Assembly (NCBI GenBank): GCA_903875045.1
Contig: CAIQUS010000059.1
Location: 1-64,000 of the forward strand
Source of the DNA: an uncultured Bacteroidales bacterium
Lineage (GTDB): Bacteria; Bacteroidota; Bacteroidia; Bacteroidales; FEN-979
Direction of reading: 5' to 3'
DNA length: 64,000 nucleotides
The notes below the pieces were generated by a model that saw only the letters and a list, made by a program, of their open reading frames with translations, was not told the origin of the DNA and did not search any database. Of the stretch, positions 299-55,137 are shown one piece after another. The translations under genes and the position numbers were made by a program. The number at the start of each line of letters is the position of its first letter. The first letter of the stretch is position 1.

Positions 299-1558
299 AT
301 GACAACAGATGCCGATGTAATCATTGCCGGGGCGGGGCCGGCAGGATCGCTGGCGGCTTATGAGCTTGCACTTCGCGGGGTTTCTGTGCTGATCCTTGAA
401 AAATCGCATTTCCCACGATACAAGGTTTGCGGTGCAGGATTAACGCATAAGATCCTGAATGAGATTCCTTTCGACGTCTCTTCTGTTTTTGAAACACAAA
501 TCCATTCATTTATCTTTTCCTGTGGGTTTAAGGAGGTTTTTTCGCGAACCACGGATGAGCCAATGTTGTATTGTACCAACCGGGATAAGCTGGACGATTT
601 TTTGCTCCGGAAAGCCATTGAAGCCGGTGCCAGAGTCATTCACGGGGAGACTGTAATGAATGTGACGCAGGAAGCACAGATCGTCTCTGTGGCTACCCGG
701 GCTGGAACATTTCGTTCAAAACTGTTGATCGGAGCTGATGGCGCTTCAAGCGCAGTTGCACGTTCGGCAGGATTGCGTGAGCATATTATGCCCGGATTGG
801 CCTGGGAGGCTGAAGTGAAGGTGGATCCGGAAACATTAAAGGCCTTTTCTCACACCGTATTCCTGGATTGGGGTTCCTTCCCGGGAGGATATGGATGGGT
901 TTTTCCGAAGGGAGATCATTTTTCCATTGGTGTTGGTGGTCCGGCAAGCCTTTCGAAATATATGATGCCCTATTATCAGAAGCTGTTGGATTATCTGTCT
1001 TCAGGGGGGGTGGATAGAGGCGATGATCTGAAATCTGAAATTCGAAATTCGAAATTTGAAATCCGGATACTGAACACGATGTCTCTGAAATCATGGCCGA
1101 TTCCTGTCCGGGTTAAAAGGAGCTCGTTTCACAAAGGGAGAGTCCTCGTGGCCGGTGATGCAGCCGGGCTTACAGATCCGCTAACGGGCGAAGGCATTTA
1201 TTACGCTGTCCGGAGCGGGATTCTTGCTGCAAGGAGTTGTTACGATTATCTTCAGGGTTCTGCTCCATCCTTGGCCTCCTATTCCACAGCCGTGAATGAT
1301 GAATTGATGACTGAACTGCTGGAGGCGAACCGGATCAAATCTTTATTCAACACTGTTCCCTTGAAGATTCACCGGTTTGTGCGCGACAGCAACCGGGCCT
1401 GGGGGGCGTTTGCAAAGATTTTGCGTGGAGAGCGCTGGTATGCGGATGTTCCGGGCGGATTTGGGAAATGGAAGGTTTTATGGGGCGCAGCCTGCTCTCT
1501 TTCGAAATTGATTTCGGATCAAAAGGAAAAACGGTTTTCAAAAAACGGGTTTAACTGA
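299..1558 (+). CDS. Geranylgeranyl reductase family FAD-dependent oxidoreductase
   Basis: A 419-residue flavoprotein. The N-terminal dinucleotide-binding motif GAGPAGS (about residues 11-17) is followed by KVCGAGL, typical of the geranylgeranyl-reductase/digeranylglycerophospholipid-reductase family. A YGWVFPKG motif lies near residue 200 and the second FAD motif VAGDAAGLTDPLTGEGI near residues 283-299. The family reduces isoprenoid double bonds or acts on related lipid substrates; the substrate here is unknown. An unusual charged segment at about residues 244-255 (KSEIRNSKFEIR) is encoded by five tandem 7-bp units, which looks like an in-frame insertion before the FAD motif. It is probably cotranscribed with the kinase fragment upstream and the SDR 6 nt downstream. 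Confidence 0.85.
   Translation: MTTDADVIIAGAGPAGSLAAYELALRGVSVLILEKSHFPRYKVCGAGLTHKILNEIPFDVSSVFETQIHSFIFSCGFKEVFSRTTDEPMLYCTNRDKLDDFLLRKAIEAGARVIHGETVMNVTQEAQIVSVATRAGTFRSKLLIGADGASSAVARSAGLREHIMPGLAWEAEVKVDPETLKAFSHTVFLDWGSFPGGYGWVFPKGDHFSIGVGGPASLSKYMMPYYQKLLDYLSSGGVDRGDDLKSEIRNSKFEIRILNTMSLKSWPIPVRVKRSSFHKGRVLVAGDAAGLTDPLTGEGIYYAVRSGILAARSCYDYLQGSAPSLASYSTAVNDELMTELLEANRIKSLFNTVPLKIHRFVRDSNRAWGAFAKILRGERWYADVPGGFGKWKVLWGAACSLSKLISDQKEKRFSKNGFN
1027..1061 (+). repeat. In-frame heptamer array (TCTGAAA/TTCGAAA), 5 units
   Basis: Five consecutive 7-bp units (TCTGAAA twice, TTCGAAA twice, TTTGAAA once) lie inside the flavoprotein gene and are read without a stop. They belong to the same AAATNNN family as the arrays elsewhere in the window. 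Confidence 0.85.
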
Positions 1559-2809: not shown

Positions 2810-4420
2810 TCAATCAACCTTTTTATTGAGAAATTTATTCTCGCTTCTGATTTCCACCGTCTTGTCAGCATTTTCTGATAACATGAAATCGGCAACCTGT
2901 GTAACCGAAGAAGGGGTGACATCACTTAATTCAACGTTGCGACGTTTATAGGCAGGAATATTTTCAATTTCGTAGAGGTTATGCTCATTGAGTTGATTGG
3001 ATTTCAGTTTCTCGCTGAGTTCCCGCAATTTTGAAACACGTTCCGTGGCTTTTTTGTTCTGAAAATCGTTCACTCCGGGTTCAGCCGGGTATTGGGGAAG
3101 GCTGGCAGCCTGTGGCCTGTAAATCAACTGGGGCTCGGTCAGTTCCTGGCTTTTCACTGGTTTAATTTCATCAACCAGTGTTTCTGCCGGTTCGGGTTGA
3201 AAATCGGGTTCAGGTTTTTCGATAATGAACTCAATGCTTCGTGATTGCTCTATTTGTTCCGGTTCCGGTGAATACGTTACAGGGACAGGGACAGGAATCA
3301 CCGGGGTTATCATTGGTTCGATCCTGGATTCAATGGTTTCGTTATTTCCTGTTTCAGGGACGAAGGTGCGTTTTTCAATTTTCGTTGCGGTTTTATCATA
3401 AAGGTCAAAAACTTTCACAAGTTCCGGTTCGTTCGGGCTTTTTTGTTTATGATCATCATCAAATCCCGTTGCAACGATGGTTACGCTGATCCTGTCATCA
3501 AGGGTTTCATCAAAACCATTGCCCCAGATGATGTCACCGGTCGATTTGGTTTTTTCCTGGATATAGTCAGTAATTTCTGTAACCTCATCCATGGTGATTT
3601 CATTCTTTCCGGATGATATGTAGAGTAACAGATTTCCGGCGCCATTGATGTCGTTGTTATCCAGTAATGGTGAGTTAAGCGCTTCCTCCACAGCCAATTG
3701 TGCCCTGTGAGGTCCATTGGCTATGCCAGTTCCCATAATGGCCACGCCACTGTTTTTCATGACGGTTTTCACATCCTCAAAGTCTACGTTGATATACCCT
3801 GCCACTGTGATAATTTCAGCGATTCCTTTGGCAGCTGTCGTGAGCACATTGTCGGCGCGGGTAAATGCTTCCGACAGAGGGAGGTCGCCGCAAAGCTGCC
3901 TCAGTTTATCATTGCTGATGATCAGCAGGGCATCAACATTCTGTTTTAGCTGGCGGATGCCATCTTCGGCAGATTGACGTCTTTTGCGACCTTCAAAAGA
4001 GAAGGGGATGGTGACAATACCAACGGTAAGAATATCGAGTTCCCTGGAAATCTGAGCGATGACAGGGGCGGCACCGGTACCTGTTCCACCGCCTAACCCT
4101 GCCGTGATAAAGAGCATTTTCGTCCCTTTGTCAAGCACTTCCCTGATATCATCGGAGTTTTCAAGTGCCGCATTGCGACCGACTGAGGGAGCTGCCCCTG
4201 CACCCAGTCCGCCGGTGAGGTTTGCACCCAGCTGGATCCTTGTCGGAACAGGGCTCGATTCCATGGCCTGGGCATCGGTATTGCAAATAATGAAATCAAC
4301 ACCTTTTATTCCCTGGTGAAACATGTGGTTTACCGCGTTGCTGCCACCACCGCCAACGCCAATAACTTTTATGATAGAGGACTGATTTTTAGGTGATTCG
4401 AATTTTAACATCTCGGCCAT
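2810..4420 (-). CDS. ftsZ: Cell division protein FtsZ
   Basis: A tubulin-like GTPase that polymerises into the division ring. The 536 residues include GVGGGGSNAV (residues 21-30) and the tubulin signature GGGTGTGA (110-117), which together bind GTP; the globular domain ends near residue 325. The remaining ~210 residues are a low-complexity linker rich in Pro, Glu and Val, much longer than in E. coli FtsZ (383 aa in total). A conserved Bacteroidota tail motif PAYKRRNVEL lies near residues 488-497, the likely binding site for FtsA. ftsA lies 95 bp upstream in the operon. Confidence 0.97.
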   Translation of the reverse strand: MAEMLKFESPKNQSSIIKVIGVGGGGSNAVNHMFHQGIKGVDFIICNTDAQAMESSPVPTRIQLGANLTGGLGAGAAPSVGRNAALENSDDIREVLDKGTKMLFITAGLGGGTGTGAAPVIAQISRELDILTVGIVTIPFSFEGRKRRQSAEDGIRQLKQNVDALLIISNDKLRQLCGDLPLSEAFTRADNVLTTAAKGIAEIITVAGYINVDFEDVKTVMKNSGVAIMGTGIANGPHRAQLAVEEALNSPLLDNNDINGAGNLLLYISSGKNEITMDEVTEITDYIQEKTKSTGDIIWGNGFDETLDDRISVTIVATGFDDDHKQKSPNEPELVKVFDLYDKTATKIEKRTFVPETGNNETIESRIEPMITPVIPVPVPVTYSPEPEQIEQSRSIEFIIEKPEPDFQPEPAETLVDEIKPVKSQELTEPQLIYRPQAASLPQYPAEPGVNDFQNKKATERVSKLRELSEKLKSNQLNEHNLYEIENIPAYKRRNVELSDVTPSSVTQVADFMLSENADKTVEIRSENKFLNKKVD

Positions 4421-4515
4421 GATTTATTATTTTGAAAGGGTTAAAAGTATTAAGAATAAATATTGAAAATTGAGGATAAGTATTTAGTTATCAACGAATG
4501 ATTGTTAATAACAAT

Positions 4516-5850
4516 TCAATCAACATCTTCATCGAAAATGTTCCTGATTTTGTCAAGAAATTTTTCCGGTAAGCTTTTTGAAGGTTTTGAGGGATCGACC
4601 ACCTTCTTATCTTTTCCCTTTTTTTTCTTATCTGCAAACGCGGGTGTTTCCGCCTGAACGACCGGTTCGGGTGGTTTAATTTTATCAACTTCCTTCTGAT
4701 AGCGGCCAATTCCTTCGATCACCAGACCAACACCGGTTGCATACATCGGACTGGCCATTTCTGCCACCACATCCGTTGAAAGATGTTCATTCGGATAACC
4801 GATGCGCGTGTCGAGGCCGGTCATGAATTCTGTAAGTTGTGCAATATGTTTTAACTGGGCGCCGCCTCCGGTGAGAACGATCCCACCGATCAGTTTTTTT
4901 TCATATCCTGAATTCTTAATCTCGAAATAGATGTGTTCGATGATCTCTTCCATCCGGGCCTGAATGATCGAAGCGAGGTTTTTCAGGCTGATCTCCTTGG
5001 GTGTTCTCCCGCGCAGTCCGGGAATTGCAACAATCTCTTCTTCTCTGTTTTCGCGGGCAAGTGCTGAGCCGAATTTAACCTTCAGTTCCTCGGCATGTTT
5101 CTTGATGATAGAACAACCCTCCTTGATATCTTCACTGATAATTTCACCACCAAGGGGAATCACGGCAGTATGGCGGATGATGCCGCCATGGAAGATGGCG
5201 ATGTCTGATGTTCCCCCACCGATGTCAACCAGCACAACACCTGCCTCCTTTTCTTCCTCACTGAGAACAGCTTCGGCAGATGCCATCGGCTCAATGATCA
5301 GTTCAACCACTTCAAGCCCTGCCTTCCGGACACATTTGTAAATGTTTTTGGCAGCAGCAGTCTGGCCAATGATGATATGAAAGTTGGCTTCAAGCGAACT
5401 TCCGATCATTCCTTTGGGCGTTGTATTGCCATGCTCCCCGTCAATGCTGAATTCCTGGGGAATTACATCCAGAATCTCTTCCCCGGGGTTCATGTTGAGG
5501 TTGTACATGCTGTTGCATAACTTATCGATGTCTTCCTGGCTTATTTCAGTTTCGCTGTCTTCACGGATCATGCTGCCCCTGTGCTGCAGACTTTTGATGT
5601 GCTGACCTGCAATTCCGACATTTACATATTTAATGTCAACCCCCGATTTACCAGCTGCCTCAGCCACTGCATCCTTAATGGATTGAACCGTGTTGTCGAT
5701 GTTTGCCACTACGCCTCGTTTTACGCCAATGGACGGCACTTTACCATATCCGAGTATGTCAATTTTTCCATGTTCGTTTTTGCGGCCAACAATCACCGCG
5801 ATTTTGGTTGTACCTATGTCGAGCCCGACAATGATGCCTGATTTTTCCAT
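4516..5850 (-). CDS. ftsA: Cell division protein FtsA
   Basis: A 444-residue actin-like ATPase that tethers FtsZ to the membrane. It begins GIIVGLDIGTTKIAVIVG (phosphate 1 motif) and carries VLVDIGGGTSDIA (phosphate 2) and GIVLTGGGAQLKHI (adenosine motif). The C-terminal tail is Lys-rich (KKKKGKDKK), then ends in a short amphipathic segment (LPEKFLDKIRNIF) that fits the usual membrane-targeting helix. It sits between ftsQ (6 bp upstream) and ftsZ, the standard order. Confidence 0.96.
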   Translation of the reverse strand: MEKSGIIVGLDIGTTKIAVIVGRKNEHGKIDILGYGKVPSIGVKRGVVANIDNTVQSIKDAVAEAAGKSGVDIKYVNVGIAGQHIKSLQHRGSMIREDSETEISQEDIDKLCNSMYNLNMNPGEEILDVIPQEFSIDGEHGNTTPKGMIGSSLEANFHIIIGQTAAAKNIYKCVRKAGLEVVELIIEPMASAEAVLSEEEKEAGVVLVDIGGGTSDIAIFHGGIIRHTAVIPLGGEIISEDIKEGCSIIKKHAEELKVKFGSALARENREEEIVAIPGLRGRTPKEISLKNLASIIQARMEEIIEHIYFEIKNSGYEKKLIGGIVLTGGGAQLKHIAQLTEFMTGLDTRIGYPNEHLSTDVVAEMASPMYATGVGLVIEGIGRYQKEVDKIKPPEPVVQAETPAFADKKKKGKDKKVVDPSKPSKSLPEKFLDKIRNIFDEDVD

Positions 5851-6660: not shown

Positions 6661-9273
6661 CTAGCGACTTGATTCTTGCAGCAATTCAGTGATTGGTTCA
6701 ACAAACTGGTCGATATCCCCGGCACCGAGTGTCAGTAAAATCTCTGGGTTACAGTTCATGATCTCCCGGAGAAGATCGGGTTTCAGGACTAATTTTTTAA
6801 ATCCGAGGTTAATACGGTCAAGCAACATTTGTGATGTTATACCCTCAATTGGTTTTTCCCGGGCCGGGTAGATGTCGAGCAGAAGCAATTCGTCGAGCAG
6901 TTCAAGGCTGCGCGCAAAATCATCGGCGAAGTCGCGGGTTCGTGTAAAGAGATGAGGCTGAAAGACCCCGGTAATTTTTTGGTGAGGATATAAATCACGG
7001 GCCGCACTGATACAGGCCCTGAGTTCTTCGGGATGATGGGCGTAATCATCAATATACACCACACCGGGTTTACGGACCCTGAACTCGAAACGGCGTTGAA
7101 CCCCCTGGTAGGTGAGGAAAGCGGTTTTTAGAACCTGTTCAGGAAGCTCAAGCAGATACCCTGCAGACAAAGCCGCGATGGCATTTTCGAGATTGAATTT
7201 TCCGGGAACACCCAATATGATGTCATTGACAGTGCTTGTAGGGGTTACAAAATCAAAATGGAATAACCCATCCTCCACACGAATATTTTGTGGAAAAAAG
7301 GAAGCCCTGCCGCCAGCAGTGTAATCAAAAACATTGTAATTACTTGTGTTTTCAGGCGTAACTGTGATCCCTGCCTTCATGGTCAGCGAACCTCCTTTGA
7401 CAATTTTGGCGGTAAACTCCGCGAATGTCTTTTTCATGTCATCATGGTTGCCGTAAATATCAAGATGATCGGCATCTGCAGAGGTGATGATGGCTATATC
7501 CGGAGTTAGCTGAAGGAATGATTTATCGTACTCATCGGCTTCAACAACACAGAACGTTCTCGCGGAAATATCAGGTTCTGATATTGTTGCCTGTTGATTT
7601 TGGGATACAAACCAAAAATTTGTCCCGTAATTTTTTGATATTCCGCCCAGAAAAGCAATGGTTGCAACACCGGCAGTCCGCAACAAATGGGCGATCATGG
7701 TTGAGGTGGTAGTTTTGCCATGGGTTCCGGCTACGGCAATGGTTGTGTAATTTCCGGAGATCATGCCCAATACCTCTGCTCTCTTTTTCAGGAGCGTGCC
7801 GGTTTGTTTAAAATAGCAGAACTCCTTGTGATCAGTGGGAATGGCAGGGGTATACACCACCAGGTCGGGGCTGACAGGCAACAAACTCAAATCTTCTGTG
7901 AAGTGGATTTGCATTCCCTCACTGATCAATTGACTGGTAAGGTTTGTAGGCGTTTTATCATAACCTGAAACAGCAGAACCCCGCGACTGGAAATATCTCG
8001 CCAGGGCACTCATGCCGATGCCTCCTATGCCGAGGAAGTAGACCGATTTGGGAATTACGATCTGGGGCTTTGAGTTTGAAATGTGGGCTTTGAAATTTGG
8101 GATTTGGGATTTGGGATTTGGGATTTGGGATTTGGGATTTGAGATTTGAGATTTGGGATTTAAAAGGGACAGGGTGACTTCTGCGATTTTATCGGCGGCA
8201 TCTGTTATTCCGAGGGCTGAAATGTTTTTCTTAAGATCTGATTGCAGCTCATTATTCCCGAGTGTTTCAATGATCATTTTTCCCAGGATTGTTATGGCTT
8301 CTGCATCCTGTACAAGCAGTGTAGCTTTTCTGGTTTCAAGTGCACGTGCATTTTTCGTTTGGTGATCTTCTGTCACGTTGGGTGATGGAACCAGGATAGC
8401 CGGCTTACCAACCACGCAAAGTTCAGAAATGGCGATGGCACCAGCGCGTGAAACGATGAGGTCGGCTGCAGCATAAGCGAGGTCCATGCGATCGATGAAA
8501 GGCAGGATAATGGGATTTGGGATTTGGGATTTGGGATTTCCGATTTTCGGTTCAGGAAAGCTTGCCCTGATTTTATCGAAGTAGTATTTTCCTGTTTGCC
8601 AGAGTACCTGGATACTTTGGTCATCCCGTTGTTCCTGCACAAACTTCAAAATGGCCTGGTTGATGGTGGCAGAACCTAAGCTTCCCCCGATCACAAGCAC
8701 TGTTTTTCTTTCGGGTGCCAGACCGAAATATTTCATTGCTTCATCGCGTTTACCTGTAATTTTCACTACATCCTTCCGTATGGGATTGCCGGTAAATACT
8801 ATTTTGCTTTCCGGGAAAAATTTATTCATTCCTTCATAAGCCACACAGATCTTCTCTACCTTATTGCCAAGAATACGGTTGGTTACCCCTGGAAAGGAAT
8901 TCTGCTCCTGGATGAGTGACGGAATATTTATAAAAGTGGCAACCCGCAGGGTTGGACCGCTGGCATATCCTCCAACTCCGATCACCACATCTGGTTTGAA
9001 TTTCGAGATGATGGCATGGGCCCTGAGTAAACTTCCTGCAAGTTTAAAAGGGAAAGAGAGGTTTTTCCAGGTCAGTTTTCGCTGGAAACCACTGATGGTC
9101 AGCCCTTCGATCGGAAATCCTGCGGCGGGAACTTTTTCCATCTCCATCCGCCCCTTTGCGCCTATGAAAAGAATTTCGATATCCTTTACCTTGGCTTTGA
9201 GAGCATTGGCAATGGCGATGGCAGGGAAAATATGCCCTCCGGTGCCTCCTCCGCTGATGATGGCCCTTATCAT
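6661..9273 (-). CDS. murG-murC: MurG-MurC fusion: lipid II GlcNAc-transferase joined to UDP-MurNAc-L-alanine ligase
   Basis: One 870-residue frame contains two complete enzymes normally encoded separately. Residues 1-370 are MurG, starting with SGGGTGGHIFPA, the glycine-rich UDP-GlcNAc transferase loop. Residues from about 409 to 870 are MurC, starting FLGIGGIGMSALARYF, with the ATP loop GTHGKTTT and HHPEE. The linker (about residues 371-409) is a 7-residue periodic segment (NPKSQIP) translated from a heptamer DNA array. A second short copy sits within MurG (about residues 243-254). No stop or start is needed between the halves in this sequence, so the predicted product is a fusion; whether it is processed is unknown. 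It overlaps ftsW by 4 bp (ATGA). Confidence 0.93.
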   Translation of the reverse strand: MIRAIISGGGTGGHIFPAIAIANALKAKVKDIEILFIGAKGRMEMEKVPAAGFPIEGLTISGFQRKLTWKNLSFPFKLAGSLLRAHAIISKFKPDVVIGVGGYASGPTLRVATFINIPSLIQEQNSFPGVTNRILGNKVEKICVAYEGMNKFFPESKIVFTGNPIRKDVVKITGKRDEAMKYFGLAPERKTVLVIGGSLGSATINQAILKFVQEQRDDQSIQVLWQTGKYYFDKIRASFPEPKIGNPKSQIPNPIILPFIDRMDLAYAAADLIVSRAGAIAISELCVVGKPAILVPSPNVTEDHQTKNARALETRKATLLVQDAEAITILGKMIIETLGNNELQSDLKKNISALGITDAADKIAEVTLSLLNPKSQISNPKSQIPNPKSQIPNFKAHISNSKPQIVIPKSVYFLGIGGIGMSALARYFQSRGSAVSGYDKTPTNLTSQLISEGMQIHFTEDLSLLPVSPDLVVYTPAIPTDHKEFCYFKQTGTLLKKRAEVLGMISGNYTTIAVAGTHGKTTTSTMIAHLLRTAGVATIAFLGGISKNYGTNFWFVSQNQQATISEPDISARTFCVVEADEYDKSFLQLTPDIAIITSADADHLDIYGNHDDMKKTFAEFTAKIVKGGSLTMKAGITVTPENTSNYNVFDYTAGGRASFFPQNIRVEDGLFHFDFVTPTSTVNDIILGVPGKFNLENAIAALSAGYLLELPEQVLKTAFLTYQGVQRRFEFRVRKPGVVYIDDYAHHPEELRACISAARDLYPHQKITGVFQPHLFTRTRDFADDFARSLELLDELLLLDIYPAREKPIEGITSQMLLDRINLGFKKLVLKPDLLREIMNCNPEILLTLGAGDIDQFVEPITELLQESSR
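8045..8163. repeat. Heptamer array (GATTTGG/AAATCCC) forming the MurG-MurC linker, about 17 units
   Basis: Consecutive 7-bp units, near-perfect from 8094 to 8163 (mostly GATTTGG on the plus strand) and degenerate but still in phase back to 8045. Read on the minus strand the array has no stop codon in any frame and encodes a 7-residue period. It occupies the exact junction between two enzymes. Confidence 0.95.
8514..8546. repeat. In-frame heptamer array inside the MurG part
   Basis: Three perfect GATTTGG units followed by GATTTCC and a partial unit. They encode NPKSQIPNP on the minus strand within the C-terminal Rossmann domain of MurG, in a position compatible with a surface loop. Confidence 0.9.
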
Positions 9274-10493: not shown

Positions 10494-11042
10494 TTATAAA
10501 TTTTTAACGGCTTTCCGAAATGCTTCCCCGCGCTGTTCGAAATTGTCAAACAGATCGAAGGACGGGCAGGCGGGTGACAGCAATACCGCATCCCCGTTGT
10601 TGCCCATATAATAGGCCGATTCAACAGCTTCCTCCATGGAAAAAGCATCAGCCATCGGGATATCCAGTTCTTCAAATGCGTCATGAATGCGGGTTGTGTC
10701 CCTGCCAAGGCAGATGATGGATTTTACTTTGGTTCTTACCAGGTGGCGCAGGAAATCATAATTATTTCCACACTCAACACCACCCACGATCCAGATGATC
10801 GGCCTTGTGGTGCTCTCCAGTGCAAACCATGTGGAATTTACGGTCGATGATTTTGAATCATTGATGAACTCCATCCCTTTGATGACTGCAACAATTTCGA
10901 GACGGTGTTCCACTTGTTGCGAACCATAAAAGCTTTCTTTGATATACTCCTTGCGGATTCCCCTGATTTTAGGGGCAATGGAGGCTACCAGTGATTCAAA
11001 TACTGTTGTTTGTCCTTGTTTTGCCAATGCTTCGAATGTCAT
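10494..11042 (-). CDS. murD: Truncated MurD: C-terminal domain of UDP-MurNAc-L-Ala-D-Glu ligase only
   Basis: Only 182 residues, against about 440 for intact MurD. VEHRLEIV, FINDSKSSTVNSTWFAL, WIVGGVECGNNYDF and LLSPACPSFDLFDNFEQRG match the C-terminal Mur-ligase domain; the first ~45 residues (from MTFEALAKQGQ) match the end of the central domain. The N-terminal UDP-binding domain and the central ATPase domain, including GxxGKT, are absent, and there is no room for them: mraY stops 5 nt upstream of the ATG. The frame itself is clean. As encoded it cannot catalyse the ligase reaction. It may be a remnant, a strain-specific deletion, an assembly error, or an accessory domain with the full enzyme elsewhere. 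Confidence 0.9.
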   Translation of the reverse strand: MTFEALAKQGQTTVFESLVASIAPKIRGIRKEYIKESFYGSQQVEHRLEIVAVIKGMEFINDSKSSTVNSTWFALESTTRPIIWIVGGVECGNNYDFLRHLVRTKVKSIICLGRDTTRIHDAFEELDIPMADAFSMEEAVESAYYMGNNGDAVLLSPACPSFDLFDNFEQRGEAFRKAVKNL

Positions 11043-20346: not shown

Positions 20347-20388
20347 AAATCGTAAATCGTAAATCGTAAATCCCAAATCGTAAATCAA
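20347..20388. repeat. Heptamer array AAATCGT, 6 units, ending 1 nt before a start codon
   Basis: AAATCGT three times, AAATCCC, AAATCGT, AAATCAA, ending just before the ATG at 20390. In the gene direction it contains TAA stops, unlike the intragenic arrays. It probably forms most of the 5' leader of the response regulator gene. Confidence 0.9.
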
Positions 20389-25383: not shown

Positions 25384-30062
<4,679 letters not shown>

Positions 30063-31593: not shown

Positions 31594-31641
31594 GTGGGCG
31601 CGTGGGCGAGTGGACAGGTGGGCAAGTGGGCAAGTGGGCGT
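31594..31641. repeat. Octamer array (GTGGGCAA), 6 units, upstream of cutC
   Basis: GTGGGCGC, GTGGGCGA, GTGGACAG, GTGGGCAA twice, GTGGGCGT, lying between the stop of the hydrolase gene (31657) and the cutC start (31565). Confidence 0.92.
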
Positions 31642-32564: not shown

Positions 32565-33599
32565 TCAAAAAGTCTGCGAACAGTTTGAACAAATACCAAT
32601 TGATTTCCTGTTTGTCAAAATCCGCTTTCTGAAATCACCGGATGATTTACCCTTCCAGATTTCCCGGAAACTTTGTTTTGTCATGTCGCCAGTCATATTG
32701 GCTGCATCTTTGTCGAAACAGCATGGAACCACCTTTCCGTCCCAGGTTATCACACAGGAACTCCAGGCGCGGAAACAGGCGTTGGGCATCCGGTTTTTGG
32801 GGGTGAACAGGTGGGCGGGTGGGCGAGTGGTCGAGTGGTCGGGTGGGCGAGTGGGCGAGTGGTCGAGTGGTCGGGCGGGCATGCGGATGTATCGTGAATA
32901 TTTCGGGTTTTCCGGCATCAGCGGATTACCATTTTTATAATCGTTGAACTGGGCAGTTTTAAATTCCAGTTTATCAACCTCCAGTTCTTTTGCCAACTTT
33001 TTGATTTCTGTCAGCTGATGTTCATTGGACTTAAGAACCAGGCACTGAAGTATAATCTCAGGGTTGTTTTTTTTTAGCCGTTTTTTCTCGTTGACCAGTA
33101 AACGGATCCCCCCGATGACTTTCGCGAAATTTCCTCCCCGGCGATAAGCTTCATAACTTTGCTGATCGGTGCCATCCAGGGAGATGATTAACCGGTTCAG
33201 TCCCGATCCGATGGTTTGCATTACGGAGTGTTCATCCAGAAAATGACCGTTGGTGGAGGTAGCAACAAATATTTTTTTCGACCTTGCAAAAGTGATGAAA
33301 TCGAAAAAATGTTTGCTCATGTACGGCTCTCCCTGAAAATAGAGTGTAAGCCAGGAAAGATGGGGCAAAAGCTGATTGATGATCGATTCGAATAATTCGG
33401 GTTTCATGAATCCGCGTGAACGGGAGAGTTCTTTCATCCCTGCGGGGCATTCGGGGCAACAGAGATTACAGCTGTTATTGGGTTCAATGCTTACAGCCAA
33501 TGGGTTTCCCCAATGAATGACCCGTTTCGTTGTTCGCGAAATAAGATAACTGACAACAATTTTCACAAGATTGATAAACCGGATCAAAAGGAGGTTCAT
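32565..33599 (-). CDS. Radical SAM/SPASM domain protein
   Basis: 344 residues. The radical SAM cluster motif CX3CX2C is NSCNLCCPECPAG near residue 45, followed by a TIM-barrel with LTLYFQGEPYM and the sequence IISLDGTDQQSYE. The C-terminus has a SPASM-like set of Cys (ACFRAWSS, VVPCCFDKDA, GICSNC) that would bind further FeS clusters. SPASM proteins modify peptides or sugars; the target is unknown. Between the two domains (about residues 242-263) is a Pro/His/Arg-rich stretch translated from an octamer array. The first codon overlaps the upstream small gene by 4 bp. Confidence 0.87.
   Translation of the reverse strand: MNLLLIRFINLVKIVVSYLISRTTKRVIHWGNPLAVSIEPNNSCNLCCPECPAGMKELSRSRGFMKPELFESIINQLLPHLSWLTLYFQGEPYMSKHFFDFITFARSKKIFVATSTNGHFLDEHSVMQTIGSGLNRLIISLDGTDQQSYEAYRRGGNFAKVIGGIRLLVNEKKRLKKNNPEIILQCLVLKSNEHQLTEIKKLAKELEVDKLEFKTAQFNDYKNGNPLMPENPKYSRYIRMPARPLDHSPTRPPDHSTTRPPAHLFTPKNRMPNACFRAWSSCVITWDGKVVPCCFDKDAANMTGDMTKQSFREIWKGKSSGDFRKRILTNRKSIGICSNCSQTF
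32811..32874. repeat. In-frame octamer array (GTGGGCGA/GTGGTCGA), 8 units, inside the radical SAM gene
   Basis: Eight contiguous octamers, with a three-unit block (GTGGGCGA, GTGGTCGA, GTGGTCGG) repeated at a 32-bp distance. Stop-free on the minus strand, it encodes RPxDHSPTRP-like residues between the radical SAM core and the SPASM domain. Confidence 0.93.
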
Positions 33600-43419: not shown

Positions 43420-43512
43420 AATTACGAATTACGAATTACGAATTACGATTTATTGCTTTGCCATCCGTTTTCCTGCCACTTGCCCACTTGCCCACTTGCC
43501 CACTTGCCCACC
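43420..43512. repeat. Composite array between coxD and coxB: AATTACG heptamers plus TGCCCACT octamers
   Basis: Four AATTACG units (43420-43447) next to coxB, then about five TGCCCACT units (43474-43512) ending 3 nt from the coxD stop. In the gene direction the order is stop, octamers, heptamers, start. Confidence 0.92.
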
Positions 43513-44497: not shown

Positions 44498-44594
44498 TTA
44501 CGATTTATGATTTACGATTTACGATTTCCCTGCCCACTTGCCCACTCGCCCACTTGTCCACTCGCCCACTTGTCCACTCGCCCACTTGTCCACT
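44498..44594. repeat. Composite array between coxA and coxC
   Basis: TTACGAT heptamers (44498-44525) starting 9 nt from the coxC start, then eight octamers (44531-44594) alternating CGCCCACT and TGTCCACT. Two bases of the coxA TAG stop (44593-44595) belong to the last octamer. Confidence 0.93.
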
Positions 44595-46204: not shown

Positions 46205-47011
46205 TTATGAATTTTGTGTTTTCGATTTCTTCCGGGATGACCGGACAACTAAAATGATAAATAATAAAGCAGCAAAGAAAATAATGATGGTCGCAGTGAT
46301 TTTTGTTACCTGAAGCGTGTATTTCCGCCCTTCAGGGTCATAGCTGAAGCAATATTCCAGTACACGGTTTATCGTGGGCCTCGACTGGCCTTTCTGTGCT
46401 TCAATGAGGGCCATTTTGACATCGAAAGGCAGGTATGAAGTGCCATAAAGATAGCGTGTAACTTTACCTTCAGGACTGAGCACCATAATAACCGACGGAT
46501 GCATGAAGTCGTTGCCGGCCCGTGTAAAATTATACCCAACCGTATGTGTCAGCGAATAAATGTTGGCGCTGTCGCCTGTCAGGTATTCCCAAAAGGCGGC
46601 CCTGGGTTTGCTGTGCGACCTTAAAAAATTCTTCTTCTTCTCAACAGAGGCTTCCGGTGTGTCGTTATCATTGAAACTCACCGTGATCACCTGGTAATCT
46701 TTTCCCAGTTCCAGTCCCATTTTTTCGATCACATCAGAAACACCGGAGAGCAGTTGCGGACAGATTCCCGGGCAATCATAGTATACCAGGGATAAAATTG
46801 TTGGTTTGGTAATCAGTGATTTAAGTTGAACAACCTGGCCCAGTTCATTCTTAAATGTCAAATTAGCGGGAATAATGGTGTCTAAATGTTCCACAATGCC
46901 AACCTCCTCCTCCAAACCTTCCACCTGGGCAAAAACAGGCAAGGAAAACATTCCCGGCAAAAGCAAAAACAAAACCCCCAATCCCAACCCCCATTTTTTC
47001 ATAATCATCAA
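46205..47011 (-). CDS. SCO1/SenC family copper chaperone
   Basis: 268 residues: signal peptide (about residues 1-28, ending PVFAQ), thioredoxin-like fold with the copper motif YYDCPGICPQL (CxxxC) and the conserved His in DFMHPSVIM, then a C-terminal transmembrane helix. SCO proteins deliver copper to CuA of subunit II. It lies just upstream of coxA (1-nt gap); its own 5' side holds a TCATCACA octamer array. Confidence 0.93.
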   Translation of the reverse strand: MMIMKKWGLGLGVLFLLLPGMFSLPVFAQVEGLEEEVGIVEHLDTIIPANLTFKNELGQVVQLKSLITKPTILSLVYYDCPGICPQLLSGVSDVIEKMGLELGKDYQVITVSFNDNDTPEASVEKKKNFLRSHSKPRAAFWEYLTGDSANIYSLTHTVGYNFTRAGNDFMHPSVIMVLSPEGKVTRYLYGTSYLPFDVKMALIEAQKGQSRPTINRVLEYCFSYDPEGRKYTLQVTKITATIIIFFAALLFIILVVRSSRKKSKTQNS

Positions 47012-47020
47012 ATTTTCAAA

Positions 47021-47116
47021 TTATCACATTATCACATTATCACATCATCACATCATCACATCATCACATCATCACATCATCACATCATCACATCATCACT
47101 TCATCACTTCATCACT
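47021..47116. repeat. TCATCACA octamer array, 12 perfect units in three blocks
   Basis: Three TTATCACA, six TCATCACA and three TCATCACT, with no interruption. It fills the whole gap between the DoxX-like stop (47117) and the SCO start (47011). In the gene direction (TGTGATGA) it holds stops in every frame. Confidence 0.97.
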
Positions 47117-47491
47117 TCATCCAACCTCATCCTCCTTATACATCCCGGCAATCAACAGCGAACCTCCCAACAGGGACGTGTCTTTTAATAATTCAATCAG
47201 CGCCATATTGGCTGAAGACGGAACGAAAAGCCCGGGGATATGAATGGTACTGATAAAAACCAATAGCAGTAGAGCCAGTAACAGACAAGCGATCCGGATG
47301 AACTTTTTAGAAATGATGGCGATACAGGCTGCAATCAGCGCCATCCCTGTAATGATCACCGTAAAACCACCACCGGGGATAAAAGAACTCACCATCCCGA
47401 CATAATAATTGTACATGATGAAGTGATTCAAACCCATCATGCCAAACGGCAATGCAAAAAGAAACCTACCGATTGTTGAAAGATGTTTCAT
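47117..47491 (-). CDS. DoxX-like membrane protein
   Basis: 124 residues with four transmembrane segments and the N-terminal LSTIGRFLFALPFGMMGLNHF, fitting the DoxX family (role unclear, sometimes quinone or redox related). It sits between the cytochrome c and SCO genes, so it is probably part of the same respiratory operon. The TGA stop directly abuts the TCATCACA array. Confidence 0.75.
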   Translation of the reverse strand: MKHLSTIGRFLFALPFGMMGLNHFIMYNYYVGMVSSFIPGGGFTVIITGMALIAACIAIISKKFIRIACLLLALLLLVFISTIHIPGLFVPSSANMALIELLKDTSLLGGSLLIAGMYKEDEVG

Positions 47492-50863: not shown

Positions 50864-51065
50864 ATTACGATTTACGATTTACGATTTACGATTTACGAAT
50901 TCCTCCGTCCATCCGCTCACCAGTTTACTTGTTTACCAGTTTACTTGTTTACCCGTTCACCCGTTCACTTGTTTACCCGTTCACCCATTTACCTGCCCAC
51001 TCGCCCACTTGCCCACTTGCCCACCTGCCCACTTGCCCACTTGCCCACCTGCCCACTCGTCCACC
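50864..51065. repeat. Composite array upstream of the respiratory operon: TTTACGA heptamers plus ~18 octamers
   Basis: Five heptamers (50864-50898), then about 150 bp of octamers (50916-51065): first half mainly TTTACTTG/TTTACCAG/TTCACCCG, second half CCCACTTG/CCCACCTG. The array abuts the TAG stop of the DUF5686 gene (51066-51068). It is the longest array in the window. Confidence 0.93.
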
Positions 51066-54960: not shown

Positions 54961-54998
54961 CAAGAGGTGCAAACCTTCAAAATTTGTATTTTTGTCGG

Positions 54999-55118
54999 GT
55001 GAAATGGTAAAATGGTAAAATGGTGAAATGGTGAAATGGTAAAATGGTGAAATGGCTACAAGCGATCCACCTGCCCACTTGTCCACCTGCCCACTTGCCC
55101 ACTTGCCCACCTGCCCAC
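54999..55118. repeat. Composite array upstream of pfkA: GTGAAATG octamers then TTGCCCAC octamers
   Basis: Seven GTGAAATG/GTAAAATG units (54999-55054) followed by seven CTGCCCAC/TTGCCCAC units (55063-55118), 20 bp before pfkA. It joins two octamer families in one leader. The first part contains ATG and TGA and could create short upstream frames (M-V-K-W-stop). Confidence 0.92.
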
Positions 55119-55137
55119 CAATTAAAACTAACAAACT

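Follow-up and report, generated by a model that had tools for sequence, protein, structure and literature searches.

An open reading frame of 870 residues, on the minus strand of the DNA we analyzed (64,000 nucleotides from an uncultured Bacteroidales bacterium, referred to here as the window), encodes a complete MurG domain and a complete MurC domain in a single stop-free frame. The fusion is real and inherited in the genus of this bacterium and is not an assembly slip. We consider it quite probable that the frame encodes a bifunctional MurG-MurC enzyme inherited within the genus, and that a spreading, stop-free microsatellite, held to multiples of three units, lengthened its linker. Judging from the sequence, both domains are predicted to be active and the protein to be made at full length.

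The frame runs from position 9273 to position 6661. The MurG part (residues 1-370; 8164-9273, minus strand) matches TIGR01133 across residues 2-366 with 275.5 bits against a curated cut-off of 250.25, covering model positions 6-352 of 353. The MurC part (residues 411-870; 6661-8043, minus strand) matches TIGR01082 across residues 411-860 with 344.2 bits against a curated cut-off of 335.1, covering model positions 2-447 of 449. Pfam assigns two GT28 domains to the frame (5-142 and 191-361) and three Mur ligase domains (411-508, 514-704, and 727-822). The two parts are joined by a linker of 40 residues (371-410; 8044-8163, minus strand), whose 120 bases consist of 17 heptamers (8045-8163) and one further base. 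In a profile search of the window's genome, a single MurG and a single MurC scored above the curated cut-offs; contig C94 encodes a MurC/Mpl-like ligase that falls below both cut-offs.

The fusion gene lies in what we take to be a dcw cluster with the order rsmH (mraW), ftsI, murE, mraY, an open reading frame for a MurD C-terminal domain, ftsW, murG-murC, ftsQ, ftsA, and ftsZ. Apart from murG, murC, and the MurD domain, these genes were named from the look of their sequences and the usual gene order rather than by family search. The free-standing MurD C-terminal domain (182 residues; 10494-11042, minus strand) sits between mraY and ftsW and aligns to positions 270-440 of TIGR01087 with a score below the cut-off. 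It is present in 20 of the 23 fetched family loci besides the window, and the remaining three loci end before that place. Elsewhere, the window's genome has a complete murD that exceeds the cut-off (G000:C160:55138-56514).

The linker is built from a tandem array. A preliminary description of this DNA had counted about 17 heptamers joining MurG to MurC in one frame, and 8045-8163 indeed holds exactly 17 units of 7 nucleotides. The AAATC core is kept in 10 of these units, and the other 7 are degenerate. Tandem Repeats Finder reports period 7 at 8084-8161, with 11.1 copies and 90% matches. The period-7 self-match of the linker is 0.73. Across every 119-base stretch of the window the mean is 0.25 (SD 0.05), and a value of 0.73 is reached by just three of them, which overlap one another at the linker site. 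The sequence AAATCNNAAATCNNAAATC has 22 overlapping occurrences in the window, against 0.01 expected from dinucleotide shuffles. The array had also been described as stop-free on the coding strand. Two of the three frames, the coding one included, are indeed free of stops, but the remaining frame contains two, one in the first unit and one in a late degenerate unit. The stretch of perfect AAATCCC units is free of stops in every frame on both strands. A second, shorter array of the AAATCCC-type family, with 5 units, lies in a MurG loop (8512-8546, minus strand) that varies in length in a 14-row alignment.

We examined how widely the fusion occurs among relatives. MurG and MurC are fused in one stop-free frame in 15 of the 19 genomes of the genus, counting the window's own, which amounts to 14 of the 18 others. 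Two of these (G001 and G005) have frames cut by a contig end and were counted as fused because the junction itself could be read through; the G005 contig (L016) leaves 589 codons. Three genomes (G007, G009, and G010) carry separate murG and murC genes, and neither MurG nor MurC was found in G004, which is 81% complete. The nearest named records are metagenome-assembled genomes of uncultured Bacteroidales and Bacteroidetes. The recurrence of the fusion bears on whether an indel in sequencing or assembly joined two separate genes at this locus. The window's assembly is fragmented (253 contigs) and there is a repeat at the junction, as such an error would require, but the same fused frame appears in 14 other assemblies of the genus, mostly with different linkers. 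Sequencing or assembly error as the cause of the fused frame is contradicted by these 14 relatives, and we regard it as extremely unlikely.

Fusions were not found in the family outside the genus among the 13 of 24 genomes whose junctions were read; the remaining 11 were judged by matches alone, and one of them (G058) has only a MurC fragment. At the order level, none of the 6 genomes (of 16) whose junctions were read was fused. The phylum search covered 395 genomes, sampled evenly from a larger set. No other row among the matches listed spanned both domains without a stop, and none of the 28 genomes of the 395 in which junctions were read (19 chosen as full-length rows, 9 for a joint open frame) was fused. 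Phylum rows with a joint open frame of 814-898 residues were candidates that turned out to be separate genes once their junctions were read. From named genomes we took 80 loci, dropped 7 that had no motif, and read 73. Nine of these are fused: eight that we take to be genus genomes already counted, and one (L099) from Lewinellaceae bacterium SD302, which encodes a MurG-MurC fusion of 867 residues at 2974-5577 on the plus strand. No heptamer is visible in the SD302 linker peptide when inspected by eye, its period not having been computed. This fusion looks independent of the one in the genus and belongs to a different lineage.

Linkers within the genus vary in length and sequence. They range from 12 to 40 residues, and the window's is the longest. 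A period-7 signal is present in 9 of the 15 fused linkers (matched by at most 1 of 5000 shuffles), and G016 gives a marginal signal (136 of 5000). The array is not a required part of the fusion, since five of the 15 (G005, G006, G011, G012, and G013) show no period-7 signal against 5000 shuffles. The units themselves differ, with AAATCCC in the window, AAATCTG and AAATCCG in G015 and G001, and AATATTC in G002. The number of overlapping four-unit matches genome-wide ranges from 0 to 340 across the genus. The number of AAATC units in the linker correlates with this genome-wide count (Spearman 0.62, p = 0.017; 14 genomes, with the window's excluded and kinship ignored), and the correlation of linker length with the same count is not significant (rho 0.28, p = 0.33). 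Six of the 15 fused linkers (G001, G005, G006, G008, G011, and G016) contain ATG, GTG, or TTG in frame. In G006 and G011, the linker TTG is followed by a stretch that resembles the usual MurC N-terminus. A separately started MurC is possible in these six relatives, as far as sequence can indicate.

The order in which fusion and array arose was examined with a tree of nine neighboring dcw proteins, leaving out MurG and MurC, from 23 genomes (15 fused and 8 separate). The 15 fused genomes and G009 form one clade with support of 97, and G007 and G010 fall outside it. G006 and G011 are the first branch of the fused clade, and the rest of the clade without them is supported at 99. The split genome G009 is sister to the fused G008 with support of 100, and it falls among fused genomes in the single-gene trees of both MurG and MurC. 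Those trees are otherwise weaker: in the MurC tree, G006 and G011 sit on a long branch within the fused clade, with low support, and the MurG tree places the unfused G007 and G010 nearer the other fused genomes, also with low support. The order of fusion thus rests mainly on the neighbor-gene tree. The simplest account is one fusion followed by one later split in G009; three separate fusions in the genus would need one more change. In G009 (L155 / L017), murG and murC are separate with an ATGAATAA overlap and no array at the junction, which is probably a return to two genes.

The preliminary description had inferred that expansion of the array made the fusion. The reading frames offer a route: where the genes are separate (G007, G009, and G010), the stop of murG and the ATG of murC overlap, and murC is read in another frame. 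Insertion of one heptamer (or 4, 7, and so on) just upstream of an ATGA stop-start overlap would, by reading-frame arithmetic, take the stop out of frame, bring murC into the murG frame and fuse the genes. The neighbor-gene tree points the other way. G006 and G011, which branch first, are fused and have no match to four tandem AAATCNN units anywhere in their genomes, and their linkers are non-repeat, with no period-7 signal in the shuffle test. The array was therefore not needed for fusion. The SD302 fusion, with no heptamer to be seen in its linker peptide, also stands against this origin. A comparison with relatives lacking the array, which the preliminary description had proposed, gave fused genes in G006 and G011 and split genes in G009. 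We conclude that the array is probably younger than the fusion and that its expansion is unlikely to have created it; the array could have had a transient role in the original fusion and been lost later in G006 and G011.

We considered whether the array makes the locus a switch between fused and split enzymes, as had been suggested earlier. Slippage would toggle the cell between the fused enzyme and MurG alone, or MurG with a separately started MurC. The arithmetic behind this suggestion is correct: with a 7-nucleotide unit, gain or loss of one unit, and also of two, throws MurC out of frame. After such changes, the shifted frames meet a stop 27 codons beyond the end of the linker or 5 codons short of it. 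Split genes are viable in G007, G009, and G010, so that the split state exists in evolution, as G009 illustrates, and canonical in-frame starts occur in the six fused linkers listed above. Against this, the window linker contains no ATG, GTG, or TTG in any frame. The first ATG in the MurC frame of the window is the Met of GIGGIGM, and a MurC started there would, given the usual role of this motif, miss the first strand and the nucleotide-binding glycines. The genome has only one MurC over the cut-off. Among the 18 genus genomes that have both genes (one genome per species), there is no case of an array at the junction followed by an out-of-frame MurC, and the three split genomes lack an array there. 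A fused/split switch by slippage at the window locus is unlikely because the linker offers no canonical start and a one-unit slip removes the only MurC over the cut-off; as a contingency mechanism it seems to us highly improbable. Non-canonical starts and rare out-of-frame cells are possible. An equally slender chance attaches to reversible one-unit slippage, in which a rare subpopulation with MurG and without MurC would arrest wall synthesis until back-slippage restored it. If this were true, an essential bifunctional enzyme would carry a built-in rare dormancy switch. Given what is established about peptidoglycan synthesis, loss of MurC should be lethal, and selection should therefore hold the unit number modulo three. 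We infer such selection on unit number in the window's linker.

The template strand of the linker array is G-rich. Four runs of G3N4 form a G-quadruplex-like pattern on the plus strand at 8099-8136. Three of the four overlapping matches to this pattern in the window lie at the linker array and the fourth lies at the MurG-loop array (8512-8535), with none expected in shuffles. The GGGATTT repeats might act as a DNA G-quadruplex that tunes transcription between murG and murC, with the coding role as a by-product. Related G-rich heptamers from Xanthomonas and Nostoc form quadruplexes in biophysical tests, according to passages of PMC4692102. This account is very unlikely in our estimation, and the linkers of relatives with AAATCTG and AATATTC units lack such GGG runs.

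The heptamer family of the linker occurs throughout the window's genome, with 233 overlapping matches to four AAATCNN units and none for the reversed control. It also occurs between the domains of other enzymes. DNA polymerase I carries NPKSQIPNPKSQIENP in frame between its 5'-3' and 3'-5' exonuclease domains (array at residues 347-364; flanking Pfam domains end at 280 and start at 379). The E2 component of a 2-oxoacid dehydrogenase has NPKSQISNPKSQ between the lipoyl domain and the E3-binding domain (array at residues 84-96, between Pfam domain limits 77 and 128), and the opposite strand is open across this array as well. Relatives were surveyed at both sites, with counts that had no shuffle control. 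The PolA linker has a nine-unit run in G014 and a four-unit run in G018, and those of G009 and G015 carry other repeats, such as an LTNLPxxQ type with another period. G018, G001, and G017 have E2 linkers with runs that are three to five units long. The remaining relatives have no AAATC run of at least three units at the PolA linker or, among the 12 of 17 rows that could be parsed and counted, at the E2 linker.

In the arrays sampled, stop-free and stop-containing units differ in where they lie. Arrays bearing AAATCCC lie in an open frame with at least 60 codons on each side in 5 of 13 sampled cases, which fall in four open reading frames, one of them a weak case near the N-terminus of a TPR protein. 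None of 14 sampled five-unit arrays, which are mostly AAATCGT, lies in a long open frame. This contrast between coding and intergenic arrays comes from small, order-based samples, the distinct arrays in the first 30 loci of 37 and of 130 matches. Read forward, AAATCGT carries TAA, whereas AAATCCC is stop-free. AAATCGT-type arrays lie in the window at 20347, 43815, 44502, 50869, and 58946. A FAD-dependent oxidoreductase gene (299-1558, plus strand) contains a short in-frame SEIRNSKFEIRILN stretch that resembles the AAATCCC-type heptamer family. Beside the 7-nucleotide family, the window holds 8-nucleotide tandem arrays of GTGGGCGA, TGCCCACT, ATCATCAC, and others, at 29984-30049, 31594-31639, 32810-32880, 43476-43511, 44531-44594, 47004-47121, 50905-51057, and 54998-55119.

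An AlphaFold2 model of the fusion was built from 14 fused sequences. The five models had mean pLDDT values from 66.9 to 82.3, and the best had a pLDDT of 82.3 and a pTM of 0.55. Four segments fall below a pLDDT of 50 (125-130, 242-251, 373-405, and 559-569). Segments 373-405 and 242-251 coincide with the linker array and the MurG-loop array, and the other two contain no array. The model suggests that the linker and MurG-loop array segments are probably disordered. It agrees with a picture of two folded enzymes joined by a flexible tether, and it does not fix how the domains are placed relative to each other.

These observations can be assembled into a mechanism for the inherited enzyme and its microsatellite-lengthened linker. 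The MurG-MurC fusion would have been inherited in most of the sampled genomes of this Bacteroidales genus, and a dispersed family of 7-nucleotide tandem repeats would have invaded and lengthened the interdomain linker. Stop-free units such as AAATCCC encode one heptapeptide, similar to NPKSQIP, whatever the frame, and this repeat peptide, which is probably disordered, would tether the domains flexibly. The array would persist because this spot in the linker tolerates changes of sequence and length. The frame is locked in that MurC is kept only by three-unit changes (21 nucleotides, 7 residues) or by compensating indels. A spreading microsatellite with a non-triplet unit could in this way supply the material from which linkers of core enzymes are made, within the limits set by the reading frame. 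With most of the genus fused and a natural split in the nested G009, the two states can be compared.

Heptanucleotide repeats dispersed over the genomes of Nostoc, Calothrix, and Xanthomonas are known as STRR. Passages of PMC4692102 describe these repeats, which resemble the family reported here in that tandem 7-nucleotide units are spread over the genome. The consensus differs, being GGGATTT/AAATCCC and AAATCGT here and GGGGA(C/T)T in Nostoc, with GGGAATC also in the set of PMC4692102. The repeats in that work are described as mainly intergenic and under-represented in coding regions. A high density of short tandem repeats, both genome-wide and in coding sequence, has been reported for Bacteroidota in the part of PMC12699852 available to us; that survey gives a phylum-level coding background, with no linker or fusion described there. 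The open-licence literature yielded no report of the repeat peptides, and the titles and opening abstract lines of the linker and microsatellite papers among the matches listed held nothing on linkers made from microsatellites.

MurG-MurC fusions are already in print. A murG/murC fusion in the dcw cluster of Cellulomonas gilvus is described in PMC4929429, and MurG-MurC fusions are also mentioned in PMC6420597, as far as the available passages of both papers go, in which C. gilvus is the one species named for this fusion; none from Bacteroidota was among the literature matches listed from open-licence papers. Other Mur enzymes also share one chain. The MurB/MurC fusion of Verrucomicrobium spinosum complements E. 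coli murB and murC mutants (in the excerpt of PMC4803751), a MurE-MurF fusion occurs in Bordetella pertussis (PMC6420597, in part), and a MurC-Ddl fusion in Chlamydia is cited in sections of PMC6420597 and PMC4803751. The fusion reported here is like these in joining Mur enzymes, but they have other partners, and the sections consulted mention no tandem repeat. Fusions of non-consecutive Mur enzymes have been taken as a sign that Mur enzymes may form a complex in the cytoplasm with MurG as its scaffold (excerpts of PMC4929429 and PMC6420597). The closest parallel is the Cellulomonas gilvus fusion, which likewise joins the MurG and MurC genes within the dcw cluster (PMC4929429, in part). Compared by description rather than by sequence, the two differ in that C. 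gilvus is an actinomycete for which the passages of PMC4929429 give no description of a linker, whereas the fusion reported here belongs to a Bacteroidales genus and has a linker made from a microsatellite.
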